A DNA stretch of 64,000 bases from an uncultured Bacteroidales bacterium (GTDB lineage Bacteria; Bacteroidota; Bacteroidia; Bacteroidales; Paludibacteraceae). Shown piece by piece: positions 1-56,438 of the stretch; position 1 is the first letter of the stretch; every line of letters starts with the position of its first letter. The notes below the pieces were generated by a model that ran no database searches, had not been told where the DNA came from, and saw nothing but the letters and a program-made list of their open reading frames with translations. The stretch covers positions 62,001-126,000 of the forward strand of contig CACZOA010000009.1 in the NCBI GenBank assembly GCA_902782665.1, in the 5' to 3' direction. The position numbers and the translations under genes were made by a program.

Positions 1-281
1 AGACAGGATCCAACAACTCATGGTCACTTGACGGTCGTTCCATCCGTGGAGAATTGGCGAAGCCAACGTATGGAGAACAAGAAGAGGGAACGATTGTGGT
101 CAGAATCATGGTCAATGAGAACGGCGACGTTATAAACGCTGATATAGCACCAGGTACAGACATCACGTCAAAACGTCTTCATAATGCTGCACTCGCTGCG
201 GCGAAGAAGACTAAATTCAATGCGATACCGACTAAGAAAAACCAGAGCGGTACCATTACTTACAAATTTGAATTAAGATAA
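1..281 (+). CDS. TonB-family protein, C-terminal domain (5' partial)
   Basis: The reading frame is open from the left edge (first full codon at 3), so the N-terminus lies outside the window. A TTG at 54 is not the start, because conserved sequence (WSLDGRSIRG) lies before it. The roughly 92 visible residues look like the periplasmic C-terminal domain of Bacteroidota TonB-like proteins: an SLDGRS stretch, GTIVVRIMVNENGDV, a helix, then the closing strand GTITYKFEL. In TonB this domain contacts outer-membrane receptors and delivers energy from ExbB/ExbD. The stop codon is 1 nt before the ATG of the next gene, so the two are probably co-transcribed. It could instead be the TonB-C domain of a larger fusion, since the upstream part is unseen. 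Confidence 0.85.
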   Translation, partial: TGSNNSWSLDGRSIRGELAKPTYGEQEEGTIVVRIMVNENGDVINADIAPGTDITSKRLHNAALAAAKKTKFNAIPTKKNQSGTITYKFELR

Positions 282-282
282 A

Positions 283-825
283 ATGAAGAAAGTATATGTT
301 TTTTTGGCAGACGGTTTCGAAGAGACTGAAGCCATATTCCCAATCGATCTCCTAATCAGAGCTGGAGCGACGGTGGAGAAAGTTAGCGTGACGGGGAAGA
401 AAGAGGTCACAGGATCACACAACATCACGGTGATTGCAGACAGTCTGTTTGACGACAACAATTACAACGATGCAGACATGTTGTTCCTGCCTGGAGGCCC
501 AGGCCACAAGACATTGTTGGCACATTCAGAGTTGATCGAGTTGGTGAAGAAAGCCAATGATGAGAAGAAATGGTTGGCTGCCATCTGTGCGGCACCTATG
601 ATCTACGGATCTCTTGGTCTGCTTGACGGCAAAGCTGCAACTTGTTTTCCAGGCTATGAGCAGTTTCTGAAGGGAGCTGTGACAACTGGAGCACCATACG
701 AGATTTCCGGCAATTTTGTCACAGGAAGAAGCGCTGGTACAGCAAAAGTATTCGCTTTGGCAATGGTAGAAGCATTGTTTGGCAAGGATGCTTCTAAAGA
801 GGTGGCAAAGGCAATTGTGTCTTGA
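283..825 (+). CDS. DJ-1/PfpI family protein (ThiJ/YajL-like)
   Basis: A 180-residue protein of normal length for the DJ-1 superfamily. The conserved acidic residue is in DGFEETEA near residue 14. The nucleophile-elbow cysteine is at about residue 102 in AICAAP, and GRSAGTA follows near the C-terminus. Family members are cytoplasmic proteins tied to oxidative or carbonyl stress (chaperone or deglycase activity is debated), and some are amidotransferase-like. The sequence supports the family but not a particular activity. It starts 1 nt after the TonB-like gene stops, an arrangement that suggests one mRNA. The protein-level match to the DJ-1/YajL subgroup is strong because both the Glu and the Cys are present. 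Confidence 0.92.
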   Translation: MKKVYVFLADGFEETEAIFPIDLLIRAGATVEKVSVTGKKEVTGSHNITVIADSLFDDNNYNDADMLFLPGGPGHKTLLAHSELIELVKKANDEKKWLAAICAAPMIYGSLGLLDGKAATCFPGYEQFLKGAVTTGAPYEISGNFVTGRSAGTAKVFALAMVEALFGKDASKEVAKAIVS

Positions 826-951
826 TATTGCAAGTAAGTCGTGGTGAATATCAAAGAATTATTAACTTTTATGAAGTTTTTTGACAACACAAGACCTGTT
901 AGTCTTAAAATATTCATATATTTAGCTGAGATTTATTAAAAAATATTAATT

Positions 952-1812
952 ATGAAGATCTGTGCATATATTTTTGCTTTCGCACTTTCAACATTGATGT
1001 GCTGTTGTGCTGGTTCAAGTAAAGAGGGAGCTGCTCCTGTAGAGGCTGTTGATTCGACAAATACAACACCTGCTGAATTTGTGCCAGTAGAGAATCTTAA
1101 CGCAGAGTGCTATGTAGACAAGTTGTCGTACGCAGTTTGTATTGATTGTGATGTACTTGACAAATTCCGTACAATGTCGATCTATGGACCTGAAAAGAAA
1201 GAACAAGAGAAGATGCCAGTTGTCTTGTTCATCGAAGGAGATGTAAAAGAGATGCCTTCATTCGAGTGGCCTCGTCTCTTCATCGATTTGGGTTACAAGG
1301 TTTGTATACCTAAATGTTCGAATATCAAGGCAGACAGAAACAACGATAAGACAATCAAGACATTCCGTACTGCATTGAACGACGTGAATGACGCCCTCAC
1401 TACATTGAAAACGAAAGCTGACAAATATGGCATTGACACAACAAGAATATTCTTGGCAGGAAATGCATCTGGTGCAGTTGTCGTTGCATCTTACATTTAT
1501 ACTTATGTGTCTGGAACAGAGCCTCTTTCTAAAGAGGGAATCAGAGGTGTGATCTCGATTTCCACTAATTCGGCTTTGAACCTGAACGAGTTTGAGAAGA
1601 ACTTTGACAACGAGATCAAAAGTTTGATTTTCCACGGAACATCAAACGAACAGAGTACAGAGCTTATAAATTCAAAACAGTTGGCATCTCAGCTCGGAGA
1701 GTTGGCTGAATTCATCGAGGTGGAGGGAGCAAACGAATTCCCTACTCCAGAATACACTAAGGTTGTAAAAGACAAGTGTAGAGAATTTTTGAAAGAGCAC
1801 TCGGCGAACTAA
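952..1812 (+). CDS. Alpha/beta-hydrolase-fold exported protein lacking the catalytic triad
   Basis: 286 residues with an N-terminal signal (MKICAYIFAFALSTLMCCC); the cysteines at 17-19 suggest a lipoprotein, although the lipobox is not canonical. The body follows the esterase/lipase layout: VVLFIEGD strand, YGIDTTRIFLAGNASGA, GVISIS, IFHGTSNEQS. Each triad position seems altered. The nucleophile elbow normally reads GxSAG and here reads GNASG (about residues 169-173), putting Ala where Ser should be. The HGTxD motif is HGTSNE (Asp to Asn). The final GHGF-type histidine region reads GANEF. The fold is inferred; function is unknown, perhaps a non-catalytic binding protein. It is followed 9 nt later by the S1-domain gene. 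Confidence 0.7.
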   Translation: MKICAYIFAFALSTLMCCCAGSSKEGAAPVEAVDSTNTTPAEFVPVENLNAECYVDKLSYAVCIDCDVLDKFRTMSIYGPEKKEQEKMPVVLFIEGDVKEMPSFEWPRLFIDLGYKVCIPKCSNIKADRNNDKTIKTFRTALNDVNDALTTLKTKADKYGIDTTRIFLAGNASGAVVVASYIYTYVSGTEPLSKEGIRGVISISTNSALNLNEFEKNFDNEIKSLIFHGTSNEQSTELINSKQLASQLGELAEFIEVEGANEFPTPEYTKVVKDKCREFLKEHSAN

Positions 1813-1820
1813 TCGCAAAT

Positions 1821-2654
1821 ATGTTAGAAGTAGGTAAAAAAAACATACTAGAAATATCAGAGGTCAGAACCGACGGCTATATCCTTAAGGATACAGTCGA
1901 CGGTGATACTCTTTTTATGCGCAAGCTGGAATTGCCAGACGGTGCGGAAGTCGGTCAACAGGTTGAAGTATTCATATTCATGAATGCCAAACGAGAAATG
2001 GTACCGACCACAATGATGCCGTATGTGATGCCAGGTGAGTTCGGTTATCTTTATGTAGATGAGGTTTCTAAAGCAGGAGCATTGCTCGACTGGGGACTAT
2101 CACGTCCACTATTCCTGCCATCACGAGAGATGACCATGCGAATGCAGATAGACAGACGTTATCTGGTATATGTCTACTACGATTTGGTGACTCGCCAGAT
2201 CATAGCTACAAGCAGAATAGACCAGTATCTCAACGTCTCTCCTGCAAAATACGAGTTCAACGATGAGGTGGATATTATGATCGCATCTCGTCACGAACGA
2301 GGATATAAAGTGATTGTCAACAACGCTCACTGGGGAATGATTTACCAAAGTGAAATATTCCAGGAGATTGAGATAGGTGCACTTTATACAGGTTATGTAA
2401 AGAATGTCCGTGAAGACGGCAAAATAGACATCTCCCTACAGCCACTTGGTTTCAAAGTGACTGATGAGTTATCGGAGATAATTATGGATGAATTACATAA
2501 GAACAATGGAATCTTGAGAGTGTCAGACAGATCGGACGCAGGATTAATCGCCGATATGTTCGGATGCAGCAAGAAGAGTTTCAAGAAATCCATCGGAGTA
2601 TTGTTCAAACAACGTTTGATCGAGATACACGAGGATTATATTTGTCTTGTGTAA
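1821..2654 (+). CDS. S1-domain RNA-binding protein, CvfB-like
   Basis: 277 residues organised like CvfB/YitL proteins. Tandem S1-like OB folds occupy roughly residues 1-210 (for example GEFGYLYVDEVSKAGALLDWGLSRPLFLP and GALYTGYVKNVREDGKIDISLQP), and a C-terminal winged helix lies at about 215-277 (GLIADMFGCSKKSFKKSIGVLFKQRLI). CvfB was characterised in Staphylococcus as an RNA-binding regulator of virulence genes. In Bacteroidota the role is unknown but presumably post-transcriptional. No membrane segment or signal peptide is visible, so the protein is cytoplasmic. It lies between the hydrolase-fold gene (8 nt) and the deaminase gene (22 nt), all on the plus strand, consistent with an operon. 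Confidence 0.85.
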   Translation: MLEVGKKNILEISEVRTDGYILKDTVDGDTLFMRKLELPDGAEVGQQVEVFIFMNAKREMVPTTMMPYVMPGEFGYLYVDEVSKAGALLDWGLSRPLFLPSREMTMRMQIDRRYLVYVYYDLVTRQIIATSRIDQYLNVSPAKYEFNDEVDIMIASRHERGYKVIVNNAHWGMIYQSEIFQEIEIGALYTGYVKNVREDGKIDISLQPLGFKVTDELSEIIMDELHKNNGILRVSDRSDAGLIADMFGCSKKSFKKSIGVLFKQRLIEIHEDYICLV

Positions 2655-2676
2655 ACAAAATTAGGAGGGAAAGAGT

Positions 2677-3921
2677 ATGAGTAGTATACTGATAAAAGGT
2701 GTGTCGCTTAATGGCAAAACCACCGATGTATTGATAAAAGGCAATCGTTTCAGCAGAATTGCCCCAAATATCACAGAGAACGCCGATCAGGAGATTGACG
2801 GCAAAGGTTTTGCTATAATTCCTCCGTTCTACAATGGACATTGCCACGCCGCAATGACATTGTTGCGCAGTTACGCAGATGATTTACCTCTGTTCACATG
2901 GCTCAACGACCATATCTGGCCAGTGGAAGACCAAATGGTGGAGGAAGACATCTACGTCGGCACAAAACTTGCATTGCTGGAGATGATCAAATCCGGCACC
3001 GTCTTCTTCAACGACATGTACGGCATGGTAGAAGAGAGCATCAAAGCTTGTGAAGAGATGGGAGTACGCGCACAGATCGGAATCTCTTTGATGGACAGAA
3101 TGGGAGAAGAGTCGATTAATGGACGATTCGGACTCCTACATTCGTTTAAAAGTACAGAATTGGTGAGACTTGCTGTCGCCCCACACGCTCCTTACACTGT
3201 ATCGAAAGAGTTGTTTGAGAGATGTGTGAAAGAGGCAGACAAAGCAGGCGTGATGATTCATACACATTTGTCTGAGACAGCGAAAGAGGTGGAAGATTGC
3301 AAAGCTGAGCATGGAATGTCGCCAGTGGAATGGCTAGACAGCCTTGGTGTATTGACAGAAAAGACAGCCTTGGCTCACGTTGTCCACACTTCAGACAGTG
3401 ATGCGGATATACTTGCAAAACGCCAGTGTGTGATCGTGTCGAATCCGACATCTAACATGAAACTAGCAAGTGGAGCATTCCACACTACTCAGCACCGTTC
3501 ACGCGGTTCAAGAGTGGTGCTTGGCACAGACGGTGTATCGTCGAACAACAATCTTGACATGATGCAGGAGATGAAATTCTTCGCATTGCTTGCAAAACTT
3601 ACTGAAGATGCTGAATCTGCACCAGCAGACTATGTTTTCGACATGGCGACAAGAGCAGGAGCGGAAGCATTCGGTATCGACGCGGGAGTTATAGCAGAAG
3701 GCAAATTGGCAGATGCCGTGCTTGTAGACATGAGCAACGAAAGACTTGTGCCAGACTACAATTTGATTTCCAACCTTGTCTATTCGGCAGACAGCAGATG
3801 TATAGACACAGTGATCTGCAACGGACGCGTCGTGATGCGTTCAGGCGTTGTGCCAGGAGAAGACAAGATAATTGAAGATGCACACAGAGTTTGTGCAAGA
3901 TTCAAAGCGATGAAGAAATAA
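2677..3921 (+). CDS. mtaD: 5-methylthioadenosine / S-adenosylhomocysteine deaminase
   Basis: A 414-residue amidohydrolase of the MTA/SAH (or chlorohydrolase-like) deaminase group. Zn ligands are visible: HCH in NGHCHAAMTLLR (about residue 55), His in HTHLSET, a second histidine stretch AHVVH, and Asp in GTDGVSSNNN. The ADDLPLFTWLNDHIWP stretch is typical of MtaD/DadD. These enzymes deaminate S-adenosylhomocysteine, methylthioadenosine or 5'-deoxyadenosine to inosine forms in the cytoplasm, recycling products of SAM-dependent reactions. AGGAGGG at 2663-2669 is a strong Shine-Dalgarno, unusual for this phylum, and fixes the start 7 nt downstream. purL follows after 22 nt, so a purine-related transcription unit is likely. 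Substrate preference cannot be read from the sequence. Confidence 0.9.
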   Translation: MSSILIKGVSLNGKTTDVLIKGNRFSRIAPNITENADQEIDGKGFAIIPPFYNGHCHAAMTLLRSYADDLPLFTWLNDHIWPVEDQMVEEDIYVGTKLALLEMIKSGTVFFNDMYGMVEESIKACEEMGVRAQIGISLMDRMGEESINGRFGLLHSFKSTELVRLAVAPHAPYTVSKELFERCVKEADKAGVMIHTHLSETAKEVEDCKAEHGMSPVEWLDSLGVLTEKTALAHVVHTSDSDADILAKRQCVIVSNPTSNMKLASGAFHTTQHRSRGSRVVLGTDGVSSNNNLDMMQEMKFFALLAKLTEDAESAPADYVFDMATRAGAEAFGIDAGVIAEGKLADAVLVDMSNERLVPDYNLISNLVYSADSRCIDTVICNGRVVMRSGVVPGEDKIIEDAHRVCARFKAMKK

Positions 3922-51200: not shown

Positions 51201-51358
51201 ATAACAGTGACTTTTGTGTTAGTGACGTCGGGGAACGCATCCACTGGAGTATGCTTAAAGCAGAACACTCCTGTGATTATCATTAGCAAAGTGATACAGA
51301 GTATCAGATATTTCCTGTTGAGAGAAAAGGAAATAATAAAATCGATCAGTTTATTCAT
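48233..51358 (-). CDS. czcA: Heavy-metal RND efflux pump, CzcA type
   Basis: 1041 residues, the standard HME-RND size, with 12 TM helices and two large periplasmic loops. The TM4 signature reads GSIDFGIIIDGAVVMVEALF, retaining the two Asp and one Glu of CzcA-like (HME1/HME3) pumps. Cu/Ag pumps such as CusA have a different pattern (AIGAMVDAAIVMIEN). This points to divalent ions such as Zn, Co, Cd or Ni rather than copper. It is the inner-membrane, proton-driven pump of a tripartite complex. Its start overlaps the adaptor gene stop by 1 nt (51358), so the subunits are translationally coupled. Confidence 0.94.
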   Translation of the reverse strand: MNKLIDFIISFSLNRKYLILCITLLMIITGVFCFKHTPVDAFPDVTNTKVTVITQWSGRSAEEIEKFVTIPIEIAMNATQKKTDIRSVTLFGLSVVTIMFEDDVDDEFARQQVYNLLKDADLPNDVEPEVQPLQGPTGEVFRYTLSSETHSVRELKTIQDWVVERNIRAVSGVADVVSFGGEVKTFEVSVNPNKLATYGISSLELFEAISKSNTNVGGDVIEKCQQSYVVRGIGLINNIEEIGNIVVKNIGGTPILVKNLAKVNESCQPRLGQVGRGEEDDVVEGIVVMRKGENAQEVITALKEKISYIQKELLPDGVEIKPFYDREDLVDLAVGTVFHNVLEGIFLVTLIVFLFMKDWRTTFIVAIVIPLALLFAFICLHLKGMSANLLSMGSIDFGIIIDGAVVMVEALFVALDEKARAIGMEAFGKLSKGGVIRTTARTKAKSVFFSKLIIITALIPIFSFQKVEGKMFSPLAFTLGFALLGALLFTLTLVPVLSRMLLGKNVKEKRNRFLELVYDITDKTFAWCHRNACKVIVGATVVMIAGLSAFALLGTEFLPEMNEGSIYIRATMPQSISLAESTKMAKQLRSEVGEFAEVKEVITQTGRPNDGTDATGFYNIELFVKIHPENEWKSGMTKEELMEKMNQKLSQHKGIDFNFSQPISDNVEEAVSGVKGAIVAKIYGKDLYESERIAEKVAKTMQPIPGIADLGVLRNIGQPEIQINLDESRLARYGVSKDDVQSTIEMAIGGKVASQVYEEERKFDLVVRYDKPFRKDENEIAKIKVENCEGAMIPIGELADIRLITGPLIIYRDGQERYCAVKFSVRDRDMGSAVAESQKKVSMNVPLSEGYRIEWKGDFENQQRASSRLAQVVPISILIIFAILYILFGNARDASLVLLNVPFAAVGGILILLITGFNFSISAGIGFICLFGICIQNGVIMIMDIKHFIRHGETLQDSIDMSVHSRTRAVLMTAMMAIFGLIPAALSHGIGSESQRPLAIVIIGGLIFATIFTLLIFPLFVEKIYSWRIYDKTGILQRRKL

Positions 51359-52419
51359 TATCTTAATGCTTCAAACTCCAACAATGCGTTTTCACTTACT
51401 ACCATTTCACCTTTGCTGAGGCCAGACGATACAAATGCACACATATCGCCATATCCTTCTATTTTTATCAGCTGTCGACGCAGATGCTTTTCGTCGTCGC
51501 ATACCACAACATAGTCATGGCCGTTTTCAAAGATTATGCTTTTCGTCGGCACTTGTAGCATCGGACGGATATCATCGGAGATGGAAATATGGACTGTGGC
51601 AAACATACCCGGCTTGAGCAAGCCTTGTTTGTTGTCTAAGCAAACCCTTACTTTCATTGTTTTGCTCACATTGTCAAGGATATTGTAGACTTTATTGATG
51701 ACTCCGTGAAATTTCACATTAGGATATGCCACTACTTCCACAGTCACACTATCTCCCGATTTGACTTTCCAGATGTCGCTTTCGTAGACATCCGCTATCA
51801 CCCATACCGTACTGAGGTCTGCTATCTCAAAAGCAGGAGCATCATTGTTGGTCGCATCTATATATGAGTCGTTAAAGACAGATTTGCCGACAACAAAACC
51901 ATTGATTGGAGAAACGAGAGAGGCCGTTGACATTTTACTATATCCGTTTACTTTCGCCACATTTTCTAATCTTGCCATCTCGGCTCGCAAAATTGTCAGC
52001 CCCTCTCTTGCTTCCTGGACGTCCTTGGCTGTTGCCATTTTGTCTGCATACATCTCCTCCAATTGGTTGAGATTTCTTTCCGCCATACGGATTTGTGCAT
52101 TAGTCTCACTTATCTGCTTCACATGTTCTGCCGCATCTGTGCTGAACACCGTCGCTAACGTCTGTTCTTTCACAACTGGGTCTCCAATCTCCACCTGAAT
52201 GTTTTGGATTTTACCGGTGCATGGCACAAATATCTTTGCAAGTTTGCGTTCATCACAAGCGATATCTCCATTCAGAACCAATTTCCCACGCATTTCTCCA
52301 GCAATGACCTCGGTTGTCACAAGATCAACACGACTTTCCGTCTCTTTAACATCTTCTTTTGACTCTCCTGAGCATGAAGACAGAACTAAAAGTGCAGTTG
52401 CAATATATAAGTTTTTCAT
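51358..52419 (-). CDS. czcB: RND periplasmic adaptor (membrane fusion protein), CzcB type
   Basis: 353 residues with a lipoprotein signal (MKNLYIATALLVLSSC, lipobox LSSC). The barrel-sandwich hybrid halves are LVLNGDIACDERKLAKIFVPCTGKIQNIQVEIGDPVVKEQTLATV and STASLVSPINGFVVGKSVFNDSYI, flanking an alpha-hairpin (about 95-145). A beta-barrel and membrane-proximal domain follow (LKPGMFATVHI, VPTKSIIFENGHDYVVV). It joins the CzcA pump to the outer-membrane channel. The CzcB-type N-terminal metal-binding extension is absent. It is encoded 2 nt after the outer-membrane gene and overlaps czcA. Confidence 0.92.
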   Translation of the reverse strand: MKNLYIATALLVLSSCSGESKEDVKETESRVDLVTTEVIAGEMRGKLVLNGDIACDERKLAKIFVPCTGKIQNIQVEIGDPVVKEQTLATVFSTDAAEHVKQISETNAQIRMAERNLNQLEEMYADKMATAKDVQEAREGLTILRAEMARLENVAKVNGYSKMSTASLVSPINGFVVGKSVFNDSYIDATNNDAPAFEIADLSTVWVIADVYESDIWKVKSGDSVTVEVVAYPNVKFHGVINKVYNILDNVSKTMKVRVCLDNKQGLLKPGMFATVHISISDDIRPMLQVPTKSIIFENGHDYVVVCDDEKHLRRQLIKIEGYGDMCAFVSSGLSKGEMVVSENALLEFEALR

Positions 52420-52421
52420 TT

Positions 52422-53681
52422 TTAGTTGTTTTGTATATCAAGTGAAACAAATGCTTTGATTAATTCAAGTTTATTCTCGGTGTGTGTGAACTGAACCTCT
52501 TTGTAAGTATCAAGGATATCAATCAGTTCAATCAATGAAATATTATGATTCATATATTGACGTTGTACATTCAATATGATCTGTTGCGACATCTCCTCCG
52601 CCACCTTGCTCGTTTCATCAACCATCTCTTGAAGTTTCAACAGTCTATTCCAATTTTGATCTTTTTCGATAGCTATCACGTCATGTAGATGTTCCTTTTC
52701 CAACATTTGAGCTTCAAGATTGTGTTGCGCTGCTTTCACTGTCCCCTGATTACGGTTGAATATCGGGATCGTAAAAGTGACTCCTGCACCAAAATAGTTA
52801 TGCCCGATGTTTCCGTTCTTATCCCACTCTCCATTTACAGACAATTCTGGCAACCCATTGGCTTTCTGCAGTTTTACATTGTGCTCTGCCATCTCAACCT
52901 TTTGTTTAGCCATCTCCAAGTCTGGACGACGTTCAATACCCTCTATGATTTCATCTTTTGTAAGATTTTTTATTTGCCCAAGGATTTCTTTTTCATTGAT
53001 TTGTGGGACGATATGTGTATTCACATCAAATCTAAGCATTGTCCGCAACTCATTTGTCTTTGACATCATGTCTATCTCAAGACCTCTAACCTCCTTTTGC
53101 AGTTGAACCATTTGACTTTTAAGTCTCACGACCTCCACCGCCGAGATATTCCCTTTATTATATTGAGAGTCATAAGACAACAGAATCTTATCAATCACAT
53201 CTGTTTCCTTTTGCATGATTGAAATTTTCTGCTTACAATAAAAAATGTCCGCCATTGTGGAATAAAGATCTCTACGCAATAATCTTTTTGTGTCAGCCAA
53301 TGTCGATTTTGAAAGACGCACATTAGCTTCTGCAATTTTGATTCTGTTTGAGCGTTGTCCACCAATGTATATTCTTTGAGATATTTGAATATCGCTCTGT
53401 CCCTCTTTCCCACATTCAAAATAACGTCCAGTGACAGGATTATTGATGTTATGCTGGATACTGATCTCTGGATTTTCAAACAATTTTTCCTGACGTAGTT
53501 CAGCCTCCGACATTTTCATTTCAACATTTTGCTGATTTATATTGACATTCTTATCACTCAATATCTTTTCTGCATCATCAAAAGATAGATACAATGTGTC
53601 TTGCTTCGGATATGAATGTGTGGCATATACAACAAAACAATTAAATGTCAGTATGCAACATAAAGATTTCAGTAAATTCAT
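52422..53681 (-). CDS. czcC: TolC-family outer-membrane efflux channel, CzcC type
   Basis: 419 residues with a signal peptide (MNLLKSLCCILTFNCFVVYATHS). It shows two tandem OEP repeats with long coiled-coil helices (LYSTMADIFYCKQKISIMQKE, EVVRLKSQMVQLQKEVRGLEIDMM) and the conserved RPDLEMAKQKVEMAEHNVKLQKA of the second repeat, then GAGVTFTIPIFNRNQGTVKAAQHN. It trimerises in the outer membrane as the exit duct of the CzcCBA pump. It is the first gene of the czcC-czcB-czcA-regulator-kinase operon. The promoter lies at 53704-53735. Confidence 0.9.
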   Translation of the reverse strand: MNLLKSLCCILTFNCFVVYATHSYPKQDTLYLSFDDAEKILSDKNVNINQQNVEMKMSEAELRQEKLFENPEISIQHNINNPVTGRYFECGKEGQSDIQISQRIYIGGQRSNRIKIAEANVRLSKSTLADTKRLLRRDLYSTMADIFYCKQKISIMQKETDVIDKILLSYDSQYNKGNISAVEVVRLKSQMVQLQKEVRGLEIDMMSKTNELRTMLRFDVNTHIVPQINEKEILGQIKNLTKDEIIEGIERRPDLEMAKQKVEMAEHNVKLQKANGLPELSVNGEWDKNGNIGHNYFGAGVTFTIPIFNRNQGTVKAAQHNLEAQMLEKEHLHDVIAIEKDQNWNRLLKLQEMVDETSKVAEEMSQQIILNVQRQYMNHNISLIELIDILDTYKEVQFTHTENKLELIKAFVSLDIQNN

Positions 53682-53865: not shown

Positions 53866-54474
53866 ATGATTTGGGATGTTCTTTCTCCTCTTTACGACTT
53901 TTTTGAAACAGTCTACAACGGCAAGTGCTTCAAGGGCATTGCGGAGGAAATAAAAAAGTATGTCAATAAAGACGACGTGGTGCTTGAATGCGCTTGCGGC
54001 ACTGGTCTGCTCACTCTGCCAATGGCTCAGATATGCAAAGAGATCGTAGCTACTGACTATTCCGATGGGATGCTGAGACAGACTCAGAAGAAGGTCAGCG
54101 GATACAATAATGTCAGGATTCAAAAAGCAAGTATTCTGGAAATTCCATTCGACGACAACAAATTCGACGTGGTTGTGGCAGCCAATGTGATCCATTTGTT
54201 GGAAGACCCGGGCAAAGCTCTCGCTGAAATGAAACGGGTATGCAAACCTGGTGGCAAACTGATTATTCCTACTTATATTAATAAGGAAAGCAAGAATTCA
54301 ATGGTGGCAGCCAAACTGCTTTCTATGTTTGGCGTGGATTTCAAACGCCAATTCAGTTTAGCGTCGTACAAGGAGTTTTTCGTTGATCATCACGTCGACG
54401 TGAAGGAATACCGCATCGTCGACGGAAGGATGCCATGTGCGTTTGCGATAAGCCCAAGCCCCCTAACCCCCTAA
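53866..54474 (+). CDS. SAM-dependent class I methyltransferase
   Basis: 202 residues. Motif I is VVLECACGTGLLTLPMAQ (about residues 38-55), the acidic residue of motif II is IVATDYSDGML, then FDVVVAANVIHLLEDPGKALAEMKRVCKPGGKLIIPTY, typical of Methyltransf_11. A small-molecule or quinone-type substrate is likely but unknown. The C-terminal residues SPSPLTP are encoded by the first G/C-block repeat at 54458-54516, which supplies the stop codon. The natural C-terminus of this family usually ends soon after the GRMPCAFAI strand, so the repeat probably replaced the last residues. The gene diverges from the metal-efflux operon. Confidence 0.88.
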   Translation: MIWDVLSPLYDFFETVYNGKCFKGIAEEIKKYVNKDDVVLECACGTGLLTLPMAQICKEIVATDYSDGMLRQTQKKVSGYNNVRIQKASILEIPFDDNKFDVVVAANVIHLLEDPGKALAEMKRVCKPGGKLIIPTYINKESKNSMVAAKLLSMFGVDFKRQFSLASYKEFFVDHHVDVKEYRIVDGRMPCAFAISPSPLTP

Positions 54475-54516
54475 AGGGGGAAATGCGGCCCCCTAACCCC
54501 CTAAAGGGGGAAATTG
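54458..54516. repeat. Left pair of G/C-block repeats flanking the DUF559 gene
   Basis: Two tandem units, each GCCCCCT-AA-CCCCCT-AA-AGGGGG-AA (54458 onward and 54488 onward; 30-bp period). The CCCCCT and AGGGGG blocks can fold back. The pair overlaps the 3' end of the methyltransferase gene. Reverse-complemented, it matches the pair at 54979-55037. Confidence 0.85.
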
Positions 54517-54535
54517 TAACCTAAAATATATTTTA

Positions 54536-54543
54536 TAAATTTG
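54536..54543 (+). promoter_or_regulatory. -7 promoter element of the DUF559 gene
   Basis: TAAATTTG matches the consensus and ends only 4 nt before the ATG at 54548, so a transcript would be leaderless or nearly so. It lies inside the repeat-bounded segment. Confidence 0.5.
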
Positions 54544-54547
54544 CGAT

Positions 54548-54913
54548 ATGAATAGTGCAGATCCTGTATATTACGAAGAATTGAAATTGCGAGCAAGACA
54601 TAATCGCAATAATCCAACAGAAGCAGAATCTTATTTATGGGAGATGCTTCGTGATAAAAAAATGGACGGATACAAATTCCGTCGTCAGCATATTATCGGC
54701 AAATATATTGTCGATTTCATTTGCTTAAGTAAATCTCTTATTGTTGAGGTCGACGGTGGGTATCATGATTCACCAGACCAACAATATGATGATTCAGTCC
54801 GTACCGCTTTCCTTGAAGGACATGGTTATAAAGTCATAAGATTTAGAAATGAGGATGTTATTGCAAACACAGATTTTGTCCTCCAATCAATAAAGACAAA
54901 TCTCTTCAAATAA
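54548..54913 (+). CDS. DUF559 endonuclease-like protein (VSR/PD-(D/E)XK fold)
   Basis: 121 residues with the full DUF559 pattern. It reads ARHNRNNPTEAESYLWEMLRDKKMDGYKFRRQHIIGKYIVDFICLSKSLIVEVDGGYH in order (catalytic-type Glu in EAE, Asp in VDF, Glu in EVDG), then YDDSVRTAFLEGHGYKVIRFRNEDV. This is the very-short-patch-repair nuclease fold. DUF559 proteins are common in Bacteroidota and often multi-copy, without a proven function. The gene has its own promoter and is bracketed by inverted pairs of G/C-block repeats that also extend into the genes on both sides. This is why I suspect it is part of a mobile or formerly mobile unit. Confidence 0.9.
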   Translation: MNSADPVYYEELKLRARHNRNNPTEAESYLWEMLRDKKMDGYKFRRQHIIGKYIVDFICLSKSLIVEVDGGYHDSPDQQYDDSVRTAFLEGHGYKVIRFRNEDVIANTDFVLQSIKTNLFK

Positions 54914-54920
54914 ATTTTTA

Positions 54921-54928
54921 TAATTTTG
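54921..54928 (+). promoter_or_regulatory. -7 promoter element of the NhaC gene
   Basis: TAATTTTG matches TAnnTTTG, 20 nt before the ATG at 54949. Its position supports the ATG upstream of the repeat array as the true start. Confidence 0.5.
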
Positions 54929-54948
54929 CACAAATAATATCCTACAAA

Positions 54949-56292
54949 ATGGAAGAAACAAAAAATAATAATAGATCACAACTCCCCCTTCAGGGGGCTG
55001 GGGGGCTACAACTTCCCCCTTCAGGGGGCAAGGGGGCTGCTTTGGCTCTTTCTCCCCTACTCCTCTTTTTTATATGTTATGTCGGAGGCAGTATCGCGCT
55101 GCATGATTTCTACGCCATCCCAATTATCGTGGCATTCGTGGTGACATGTCTTTACGCCCTCTTTATTTTCCGCAACGACACTTTCAACAACCGTGTGATG
55201 GCATTCGGACGTGGGGCCGGCAACGAGAATATCATGTATATGGTGTTGATATTCATTCTTGCCGGTGGTTTCGCTTCCCTTGCCAAAAGTATAGGTGCAG
55301 TCGACGCTACTGTCAACATGTGTCTTCATTTTCTCCCCACTGCACTTTTGCTTCCTGGTCTGTTCCTCGCAACATGTCTGGTGTCGATGAGTATCGGAAC
55401 ATCAGTAGGTTCGATCGCAGCATTGGTGCCTCTGGCAGCTGGACTTGCAGCACAGACAGGAAACAGTGTGGCACTCTACACTGCCTGCATCGTCGGCGGA
55501 GCATTCTTCGGAGATAATCTTTCCTTCATCAGCGACACAACCATCGTCGCCACTCGCACACAAGGGATTGCCATGCATGAGAAATTCAAGGCCAATATAA
55601 GGATTGTCCTTCCCGCCGCATTGATTGCGATGATGGTATACGTGGTGATAGGATTCGGTTCGAATGCCAACCACACAGTTGAAGCCCCTGATTTCATACG
55701 TGTTCTGCCATACATAGTAGTGTTGGTGACCGCCATTTGCGGAATCAATGTCATTATCGTGCTGACAATAGGAATCATCCTTTGCACTATCCTTGCCCTT
55801 TGCCTAGACGGTGCAGCATTCACCTCTATCCTGCAATCTATCGACGGTGGTGTGAAAGGAATGAGTGAACTGATTATTGTGACATTGCTTGCAGGCGGAC
55901 TGATGGAACTGATCCGCATCAACGGAGGTATAGACATTCTGATGAATGCCATAAAGAGCAAAGTCACCAAACGTCGTGGTGCGGAATTGAGCATCGGAGC
56001 ACTCGTGACAGCAGCCGATTTCTGTACTGCCAACAACACAATCGCAATCCTTACTGTAAGCAGTCTGGCGAAAGAGATTGCCGAGCGATTCAACATTCCC
56101 CCTCGTCGAGTGGCAAGTCTGCTCGATACATGGAGCTGCATCGCACAATCGATCATTCCGTATGGAGCGCAACTCCTCATCGCCTCCGGGCTTGCGGCTA
56201 TCGCGCCGACCGAGATCATAAGCCATCTCGTCTACCCATATATATTAGCAGTCATTACGCTTGGTGTAAGTGTGGTGAAGGGGAAAGATTAA
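54949..56292 (+). CDS. nhaC: Na+/H+ antiporter, NhaC family, with repeat-encoded N-terminus
   Basis: 447 residues with about 11 TM helices. Signature segments are GTSVGSIAALVPLA, GGAFFGDNLSFISDTTIVATRTQG and ADFCTANNTIAILTVSSLAKEI. It exchanges Na+ for H+ at the inner membrane to hold cytoplasmic pH and sodium. Codons about 10-30 (QLPLQGAGGLQLPPSGGKGA) are exactly the right-hand G/C-block repeat pair read in frame; there is no other ATG before the first TM helices. The repeat therefore lengthens the cytosolic N-terminus. A TTG at about 55041, after the repeats, is a poor alternative start. Confidence 0.9.
   Translation: MEETKNNNRSQLPLQGAGGLQLPPSGGKGAALALSPLLLFFICYVGGSIALHDFYAIPIIVAFVVTCLYALFIFRNDTFNNRVMAFGRGAGNENIMYMVLIFILAGGFASLAKSIGAVDATVNMCLHFLPTALLLPGLFLATCLVSMSIGTSVGSIAALVPLAAGLAAQTGNSVALYTACIVGGAFFGDNLSFISDTTIVATRTQGIAMHEKFKANIRIVLPAALIAMMVYVVIGFGSNANHTVEAPDFIRVLPYIVVLVTAICGINVIIVLTIGIILCTILALCLDGAAFTSILQSIDGGVKGMSELIIVTLLAGGLMELIRINGGIDILMNAIKSKVTKRRGAELSIGALVTAADFCTANNTIAILTVSSLAKEIAERFNIPPRRVASLLDTWSCIAQSIIPYGAQLLIASGLAAIAPTEIISHLVYPYILAVITLGVSVVKGKD
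54979..55037. repeat. Right pair of G/C-block repeats, inside nhaC
   Basis: Two tandem units (54979-55006 and 55009-55037), each with CCCCCTTCAGGGGG followed by a second G5 block. It is the inverted counterpart of the pair at 54458-54516, with block order and spacing kept and G/A versus T/C changes between blocks. It is translated as part of NhaC. Confidence 0.85.
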
Positions 56293-56298
56293 AGGCCA

Positions 56299-56413
56299 AT
56301 CTCCAAAAAAGTGTCGAGTAACTGCATTTCTATCTCCAAAAAAGTGTAATATCTGCATGAATTTATCTCCAAAAAAGTGTAGTGTTATTGTGTTTTTATC
56401 TCCAAAAAAGTGT
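56299..56413. repeat. Four 16-bp direct repeats at exact 33-bp spacing
   Basis: ATCTCCAAAAAAGTGT occurs without mismatch at 56299, 56332, 56365 and 56398, each 33 bp from the last, separated by unrelated 17-bp spacers. The last copy runs into the promoter element of the DUF4143 ATPase gene (56413-56420). Copies 2-4 are also followed by TA. Confidence 0.95.
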
Positions 56414-56420
56414 AATTTTG
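56413..56420 (+). promoter_or_regulatory. -7 promoter element of the DUF4143 ATPase gene
   Basis: TAATTTTG matches TAnnTTTG, begins on the last base of the fourth 33-bp-spaced repeat, and lies 18 nt before the ATG. Whatever binds the repeats would sit at the -33 region and upstream. Confidence 0.55.
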
Positions 56421-56438
56421 CCTAAAATTCAATAATTT

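Follow-up and report, generated by a model that had tools for sequence, protein, structure and literature searches.

Does a short nuclease gene lying between inverted palindromic repeats form a mobile unit with them, and what would make such a unit move? The question is raised by a locus in the window, that is, the whole stretch of 64,000 nucleotides analysed here from an uncultured Bacteroidales bacterium (GCA_902782665.1, contig CACZOA010000009.1), where a DUF559 nuclease gene, bracketed by G/C-block repeats, stands between a methyltransferase gene and an nhaC gene. A sequence-only reading of this DNA had proposed that nuclease and repeats form a mobilisation or domestication system of Bacteroidota. 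On the present evidence we lean, with modest confidence, towards positions 54458-55037 being a mobile homing-like element with palindromic ends, the spread of which would be driven by its nuclease. The idea of mobilisation gains from the distinct sites at which such elements are found, a nearly identical pair of copies, the coexistence of occupied, empty and solo-repeat alleles and a tract of low divergence at the window locus, but the limits set to it were too narrow: the same anatomy occurs in other phyla, and about half of the sampled copies in the family lie in frame inside proteins and not between genes.

The element and its nuclease

The features of the element, with the two genes that it enters, are the following:

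54458..54516, + strand: left terminal repeats, two units GCCCCC-TAA-CCCCC-TAAA-GGGGG with a spacing of 30 (from sequence, shuffles and genome search)
54979..55037, – strand: right terminal repeats, two units with a spacing of 31, in a block order that is the reverse complement of the left pair
54548..54913, + strand: DUF559 (PF04480) nuclease gene, 121 amino acids (from Pfam, profile and structure)
54536..54543, + strand: TAAATTTG, candidate –7 element of the DUF559 gene (TAnnTTTG, an assumed motif)
54921..54928, + strand: TAATTTTG, candidate –7 element of nhaC (TAnnTTTG, the same assumed motif), within the element
54488..54961, no strand: low-divergence stretch, putative exchanged core (from alignment to five genus-mates)
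53866..54474, + strand: class I methyltransferase gene, with C-terminal residues and stop codon from the left repeat
54949..56292, + strand: NhaC-like Na+/H+ antiporter gene, with start codon and first ~30 codons from the element

The two repeat pairs are inverted to each other, as had been read from the letters, their arms (54482-54521 and 55004-55043) being 83% complementary. Over both pairs the units share the pattern GCCCCC-TAA-CCCCC-TNAA-GGGGG, and measured unit by unit they span 54458-54514 and 54983-55038. Terminal inverted repeats are likewise present in elements at ileS sites and in loci of the family survey described below. It also held true that the left pair ends the methyltransferase, whose stop codon (54472-54474) falls within the first left unit, and that the right pair is translated in frame, as approximately codons 11-30 of NhaC. 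The motif TAnnTTTG, which we take to be the –7 motif of Bacteroidota, stands at 54536, in agreement with the claim that the DUF559 gene has a –7 element of its own. The further claim that only the DUF559 gene lies between the repeats is right as to the gene and wrong as to “only”, because the nhaC start codon (54949), the first ten nhaC codons and a second TAnnTTTG (54921) are enclosed too; the element thus seems to supply the start of nhaC and perhaps its promoter. Ten NhaC homologues of other genera, all of them distant (~37-56% identical), were inspected, and none of the nine with a visible N-terminus has an extension like that of the window protein.

The nuclease belongs to PF04480/DUF559 (E 5.9e-38, 129.5 bits against a cut-off of 20.6), and the only Pfam matches of the window protein are DUF559 and REase_MTES_1575, hence no Y1 (HUH) transposase: the element is not a RAYT (REP-associated tyrosine transposase, REP being repetitive extragenic palindromic). 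A profile built from 40 DUF559 domains found in the PDB 3hrl (entry name NGO0050; E 2.6e-34) and the homing endonuclease I-Bth0305I (3r3p; E 1.1e-5), and the same two structures were the top matches in Foldseek of an AlphaFold2 model with a pLDDT (predicted local distance difference test) of 90, with E 4.4e-5 and TM (template modelling) scores of 0.62/0.75 for 3r3p; the repair nuclease Vsr (1cw0) gave E 0.21. DUF559 is therefore a relative of I-Bth0305I in both sequence and fold. In print, a passage of PMC9403480 assigns a DUF559 gene to the EDxHD homing family. This placement and the relation to I-Bth0305I make a homing-endonuclease-like action likely. Among 50,697 phage records, two carry a DUF559 match at E<=1e-6, and a defence-system library returned a single weak match (DpdF, 25 bits).

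Repeats and nuclease occur together

In the window, CCCCCTNNAGGGGG is found four times with at most one mismatch against 0.01 expected, a number reached in 0 of 100 shuffles, and in the whole assembly (3.33 Mb, 87.7% complete) its exact form is confined to four places, every one of them flanking the DUF559 gene, which is the only DUF559 match in this genome. DUF559 is present in eight of the nine genomes of the genus and is flanked by inverted G/C-block repeats in all eight. In seven it occupies the methyltransferase-nhaC site, with one or two repeat units per side, while in the eighth (L012) it lies elsewhere, between a cupin-like and a glycan-transferase-like gene (named by reading, with no family search). 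No empty methyltransferase-nhaC allele was found in the nine genomes: G006 (91% complete) has neither DUF559, nor a repeat triplet, nor nhaC, and in G005 nhaC is interrupted by a contig end. Other genera have only distant NhaC homologues.

The association was followed in a sample of 200 genomes of the GTDB family, and DUF559 matches are present in 92 of them. Loci were taken for most of the stronger matches, the weaker being mostly left out, giving 135 distinct rows; among them are one cut-off duplicate (the second domain of L016, identical to L183) and a broken gene (L128, on contig 38 of G014) present as two pieces. Four rows too short in flank left 131 for the repeat tests. The broken L128 gene is interrupted by a stop codon and is a decaying copy. 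The enrichment of flanking repeats on which the sequence-only reading had staked its proposal is clearly there: three-block G/C repeats (triplets) lie within 250 nucleotides on both sides of 80 of the 131 loci, against 0-1 of 82-120 when both windows were shifted outward by 250-3000 nucleotides. With a strict triplet pattern, 26 of 131 loci are positive on both sides, and 46 on one side or both. The block order is mostly C-C-G on the left (82) and C-G-G on the right (88), which is what inverted ends require.

The same outcome was obtained without any motif, by scoring the best local match between the left flank and the reverse complement of the right flank (threshold score >=16). At this threshold 77 of 131 family rows pass, against none of 117, 110 and 93 controls, as do 21 of 39 loci of a wider set (controls 0 of 34, 30 and 25) and 10 of 28 in a later set of 29 loci from other families of the same phylum, for which the thresholds had been fixed beforehand without them (0 of 25-28 in four controls). 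On these counts, inverted G/C-block repeats are strongly enriched beside DUF559 genes. The triplet test was positive in only 5 of the 28 later loci (controls 1, 0, 0, 0). Matches in direct orientation are raised as well (36 of 131 family rows) because the repeats are palindromes. Eight of the 39 wider loci are titled Bacteroidota, and among the remaining 31, 19 pass the motif-free test, so that the association is not confined to that phylum, as had been supposed, although not every passing match outside it is a G/C block (L070 is not). At an E. coli locus (L268) and a Neisseria locus (L270) comparable inverted repeats are lacking (scores 8 and 10).

When the 200 genomes are classed by whether they have a strong DUF559 hit (E<=1e-20) and any strict triplet, 59 have both, 11 the hit alone, 34 the triplet alone and 96 neither, corresponding to an odds ratio of 15 and a rank correlation of 0.67, values to be read in the knowledge that the genomes are kin and that triplets at the DUF559 genes themselves are counted. 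At four or more triplets, the same cells hold 54, 16, 18 and 112 genomes.

Some single loci deserve mention in their own right. In the Neisseria gonorrhoeae record L270, the DUF559 gene lies between copies of a long direct repeat (local score 74), in which a CCTCTCCCTG-type block occurs. On a Picosynechococcus plasmid (L271), a cyanobacterial DUF559 gene adjoining DUF499, DUF1156 and DUF433 genes has ends much like those in Bacteroidota (AGCCCCTAAATCCCC...GGGGACTTT). On a Synechocystis plasmid (L269, 1831-4355), a DUF559 gene stands between a short DUF1156 gene and a long hypothetical gene, an arrangement that may be one gene split by the element.

Elements in frame within host proteins

The earlier placing of such elements between genes proved too narrow in the survey. 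A DUF559 domain was counted as embedded when it had 70 or more residues of open frame on each side; by this rule 68 of the 135 family rows are embedded, together with 10 of the 39 wider rows (6 of these titled Bacteroidota) and 11 of the 29 later ones. The hosts, named by motif and by eye and in nine cases checked with Pfam, include LeuS, ValS, IleS, MetH, PurL, UvrA, DegT-like aminotransferases, SpoIID, PrmC and restriction-type proteins. One site, just ahead of a motif of what we take to be the editing domain, is common to the synthetases LeuS, ValS and IleS, and IleS has a further site in what is presumably its catalytic half. The repeats are translated as linkers (e.g., PPKSPKGDLGG or LSPNPSPEERG), and triplets lie on both sides of 44 of the 68 embedded rows and of 36 of the 63 others. 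In one IleS gene (L183, contig 52 of G155), two DUF559 elements occupy two sites.

An intron or an intein was considered as the carrier of the embedded copies and set aside, since a Pfam scan of nine host proteins returned no intein domain and Rfam no intron in seven loci, of which six hold embedded copies. Four g2 genomes have an element in the catalytic half of IleS; in each, the gene that bears it is the only near-full-length IleS among the matches listed, and its product should therefore work either as a fusion or after processing. The five catalytic-type residues of the nuclease (D56, E67, D69, H73 and W31) are near-invariant: the full set is found in 81 of the 85 rows that lie in longer frames and in 86 of the 89 standalone rows.

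Signs of movement

One sign of movement comes from genome G049, in which the elements L123 and L102, at two ileS sites, are 96% identical over 433 nucleotides, with the similarity ending at the repeats. The two seem to belong to one ileS gene that an assembly break at the element has split over two contigs. In G019, the other genome of this genus, one of the two ileS sites is without an element and the other has a solo repeat. At the catalytic-half site of IleS, the motif-to-motif length is 37 residues in 24 of 26 distinct unoccupied rows and 33 and 36 in the remaining two; two unoccupied rows (L212 and L226) are scar-like, and eight occupied rows have elements whose ends are of at least three kinds and which replace about eight codons of a variable loop (by eye). 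When the 25 empty and 8 occupied rows are placed on a host tree (33 rows in all), the state of this site needs six changes, i.e. it is scattered, and shuffled occupancy gives a mean of 7.3 changes, with values as low in 83 of 500 shuffles.

At the window locus, synonymous divergence among six genomes is 0-0.04 for DUF559 in all 15 pairs, as compared to 0.06-0.57 for the methyltransferase and 0.10-0.46 for NhaC. With these two neighbours as the yardstick, and for pairs that are non-independent, the difference has p<=1.6e-4 in 14 of 15 pairs (G001-G002, p 0.099). The tract itself, 54488-54961 (~474 nucleotides), has one to six substitutions against each of five genus-mates (two against G002). 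Its right edge against G001 and G002 is at 54962, near the repeats, and its left edge against G003 is at the left repeat. At embedded sites, codon identity favours transfer, DUF559 being above both host flanks in 143 of 245 pairs and below both in 47, and above both in 14 of 15 close pairs, a comparison in which codon usage is uncontrolled and the pairs are non-independent.

Two further observations concern other parts of the window. Two efflux-type genes (by eye) at 51358-53681, upstream of the element, have 100% matches in two genomes of the genus, G003 and G008, and none in the other six of the nine; the pair is perhaps a recent horizontal acquisition. Downstream, at 56299-56430, between nhaC and an AAA_14/DUF4143 gene, ATCTCCAAAAAAGTGT is repeated four times with a spacing of 33 nucleotides.

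How the element might work, and the alternatives

The preferred reading may be put as follows. The element consists of inverted three-block G/C repeats at both ends, with a terminal block and a subterminal hairpin, and of one gene for a Vsr-fold nuclease of the DUF559/EDxHD type. The nuclease would cut an allele free of the element, or DNA at the repeats, and repair would copy the element in, together with a variable length of flank; movement would thus be driven by the nuclease. Insertions into genes could be tolerated if the repeats are free of stop codons in the frame of the host, in which case they would serve as linkers and host and nuclease would become one polypeptide, presumably active without being processed. 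Insertions between genes, as in the window, would leave it to the repeats to end one neighbouring gene and to begin the other, and solo repeats would be non-autonomous copies or leftovers.

Several results weigh against such a mobile element, and they come both from the window and from the embedded sites. Inspection by eye of the ileS sites compared, where the empty alleles have diverged, showed no target-site duplication. In the window, a tract cleanly bounded by the repeats had to be rejected, as only some edges fall at them: against G001 and G002 the left edge is at ~54265, about 190-220 nucleotides outside the left repeat, and against G003 the right edge is far inside NhaC. Since the edges vary, they resemble conversion tracts around a shared core and leave the repeats unsupported as bounds of exchange. 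The seventh genome, G007, shows no sweep, being equally distant (0.6) in all three genes, and the genus-mates exchange DNA near this locus anyway, so that the tract could be a product of ordinary recombination. At embedded sites, a test for homing by protein identity was negative in 235 of 244 pairs: DUF559 exceeds both host flanks in the other 9, and its median identities (0.53-0.75) are lower than those of the flanks (0.69-0.90), which suggests that most of these copies are old and have been inherited vertically. On the DUF559 tree, moreover, the domains group by site, with 30 changes against a shuffled mean of 82. The strict triplet is also absent from 11 of the 70 genomes with a strong DUF559 hit.

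The alternative that survives best, although it appears unlikely, is that the repeats are themselves the mobile unit and owe their movement to recombination or to the trans action of an unrelated transposase (Y1/RAYT-like or other), with DUF559 as cargo or as a nuclease kept because it acts on the repeat hairpins. It would account for repeats that occur away from the gene: triplets are present in 34 of the 130 genomes without a strong DUF559 hit, 11 of these 34 having at least ten triplets (3 of the 11 with a weak hit). It would also account for G031, in which none of 39 strict triplets (some overlapping) lies at any of its three DUF559 genes (two have looser triplets on one side only and one on both), and 27 of 30 solo repeat rows read are outside any frame that stays open for 60 codons in both directions. 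It agrees less well with the confinement of the exact palindrome to the DUF559 gene in the genome of the window, with the bracketing of one and the same gene family again and again across phyla, and with catalytic-type residues that are near-invariant even within host proteins. As an observation apart, two solo repeats of G031 (L315 and L308) lie in long open frames, one of them in IleS and in the frame of the host, the other in a primase-like gene (by eye).

A second alternative, distinctly less probable than the first, regards DUF559 as a Vsr-like repair nuclease of benefit to the host, and the repeats as hotspots for homologous swapping between species in which the nuclease is passive. The Vsr-type fold is in its favour, as are the mosaic flanks and variable tract edges in the window. 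A DUF559 protein of Caulobacter, VsrA, is a predicted mismatch-repair nuclease needed for a DNA-damage response in a methylase mutant, according to parts of PMC12907096, and DUF559 segments with a transposase were recombination hotspots in a Legionella evolution experiment, as stated in a portion of PMC12308824. This view leaves unexplained the in-frame embedding in many unrelated conserved genes with linkers coded by repeats, as well as the patchy occupancy of the one ileS site with its six changes on the host tree. Chance or an assembly artefact can be dismissed almost entirely, for although many relatives are metagenome-assembled genomes (MAGs) and the assembly of G049 is interrupted at the element, chance is ruled out by shuffles and shifted controls with counts near zero, and embedded copies are found on the single-contig genome G031 (L143 and L172) and, within LeuS (by motif), in the NZ_ Muricauda records L056 and L065, the titles of which are not marked MAG.

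A broader generalisation of the preferred reading, which can be advanced only tentatively, is that pan-bacterial homing elements exist that do without splicing, with an EDxHD-type nuclease and palindromic G/C-block ends that double as linkers, so that the nuclease persists as a tolerated domain in essential genes, much as an intein does, with the solo palindromes found scattered over many genomes as their non-autonomous progeny, DUF559 being to these repeats what RAYT is to REP. If this were true, a function would be given to the widespread and little-characterised DUF559 family, a driver would be named for a class of G/C-block palindromic repeats, and a homing-type nuclease could enter conserved genes without an intron or intein. 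It would also alert to the extra nuclease domain that tRNA synthetases, PurL, MetH and UvrA of many sampled genomes contain and that annotation would count as part of the enzyme.

Comparison with known systems

No description of a nuclease combined with repeat ends and in-frame embedding turned up in the open literature searched, a scope outside which most subscription journals fall. In the titles and abstract openings of the open papers listed for DUF559 or another of its names, flanking repeats are not a subject, and the open papers on palindromes, homing and in-frame insertion offer analogues only.

By sequence and fold of the nuclease domain, the EDxHD/Vsr-like homing endonucleases such as I-Bth0305I are homologous to DUF559. 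Unlike them, the DUF559 copies tested are without a detected self-splicing intron or intein and may be of a free-standing type, and they differ in having inverted G/C-block repeats at both ends of the element. I-Bth0305I has, from what part of PMC3943268 describes, a long DNA-binding region, for which the 121-amino-acid window protein has no room. Inteins are similar as homing-type nucleases inserted in frame in conserved genes, and differ by their Hint/splicing domain, which Pfam did not find in the nine host proteins. With insertion sequences and miniature inverted-repeat transposable elements, terminal inverted repeats are shared.

The REP elements, or bacterial interspersed mosaic elements, with their RAYT resemble the present system in that inverted palindromes, with a flanking block, enclose one nuclease gene, and in solo copies that are mostly outside long frames (as in the G031 rows). 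The gene is a Y1 (HUH) transposase there and DUF559 here, and the in-frame position of about half of the sampled family copies within proteins is a further difference. The RAYT/REP features compared are general knowledge, apart from those in the abstract of PMC3733652.

The likeness in embedding is greatest elsewhere. Rickettsia palindromic elements are, as parts of PMC10969869 have it, palindromic units of ~150 bp that lie in frame in unrelated protein genes. Compared by description, the DUF559 elements are set apart by the nuclease gene between their inverted repeats, and since the window copy is itself intergenic, the in-frame likeness rests on the 68 embedded rows of the 135 in the family. 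The GC clusters of yeast mitochondria are G/C-rich mobile palindromes that occur in frame in var1, and the sections of PMC8811140 concerned mention no nuclease gene within a cluster. In so far as these two sources describe them, the Rickettsia palindromic elements (PMC10969869) and the yeast GC clusters (PMC8811140) are the nearest precedents for palindromes read in frame within proteins.

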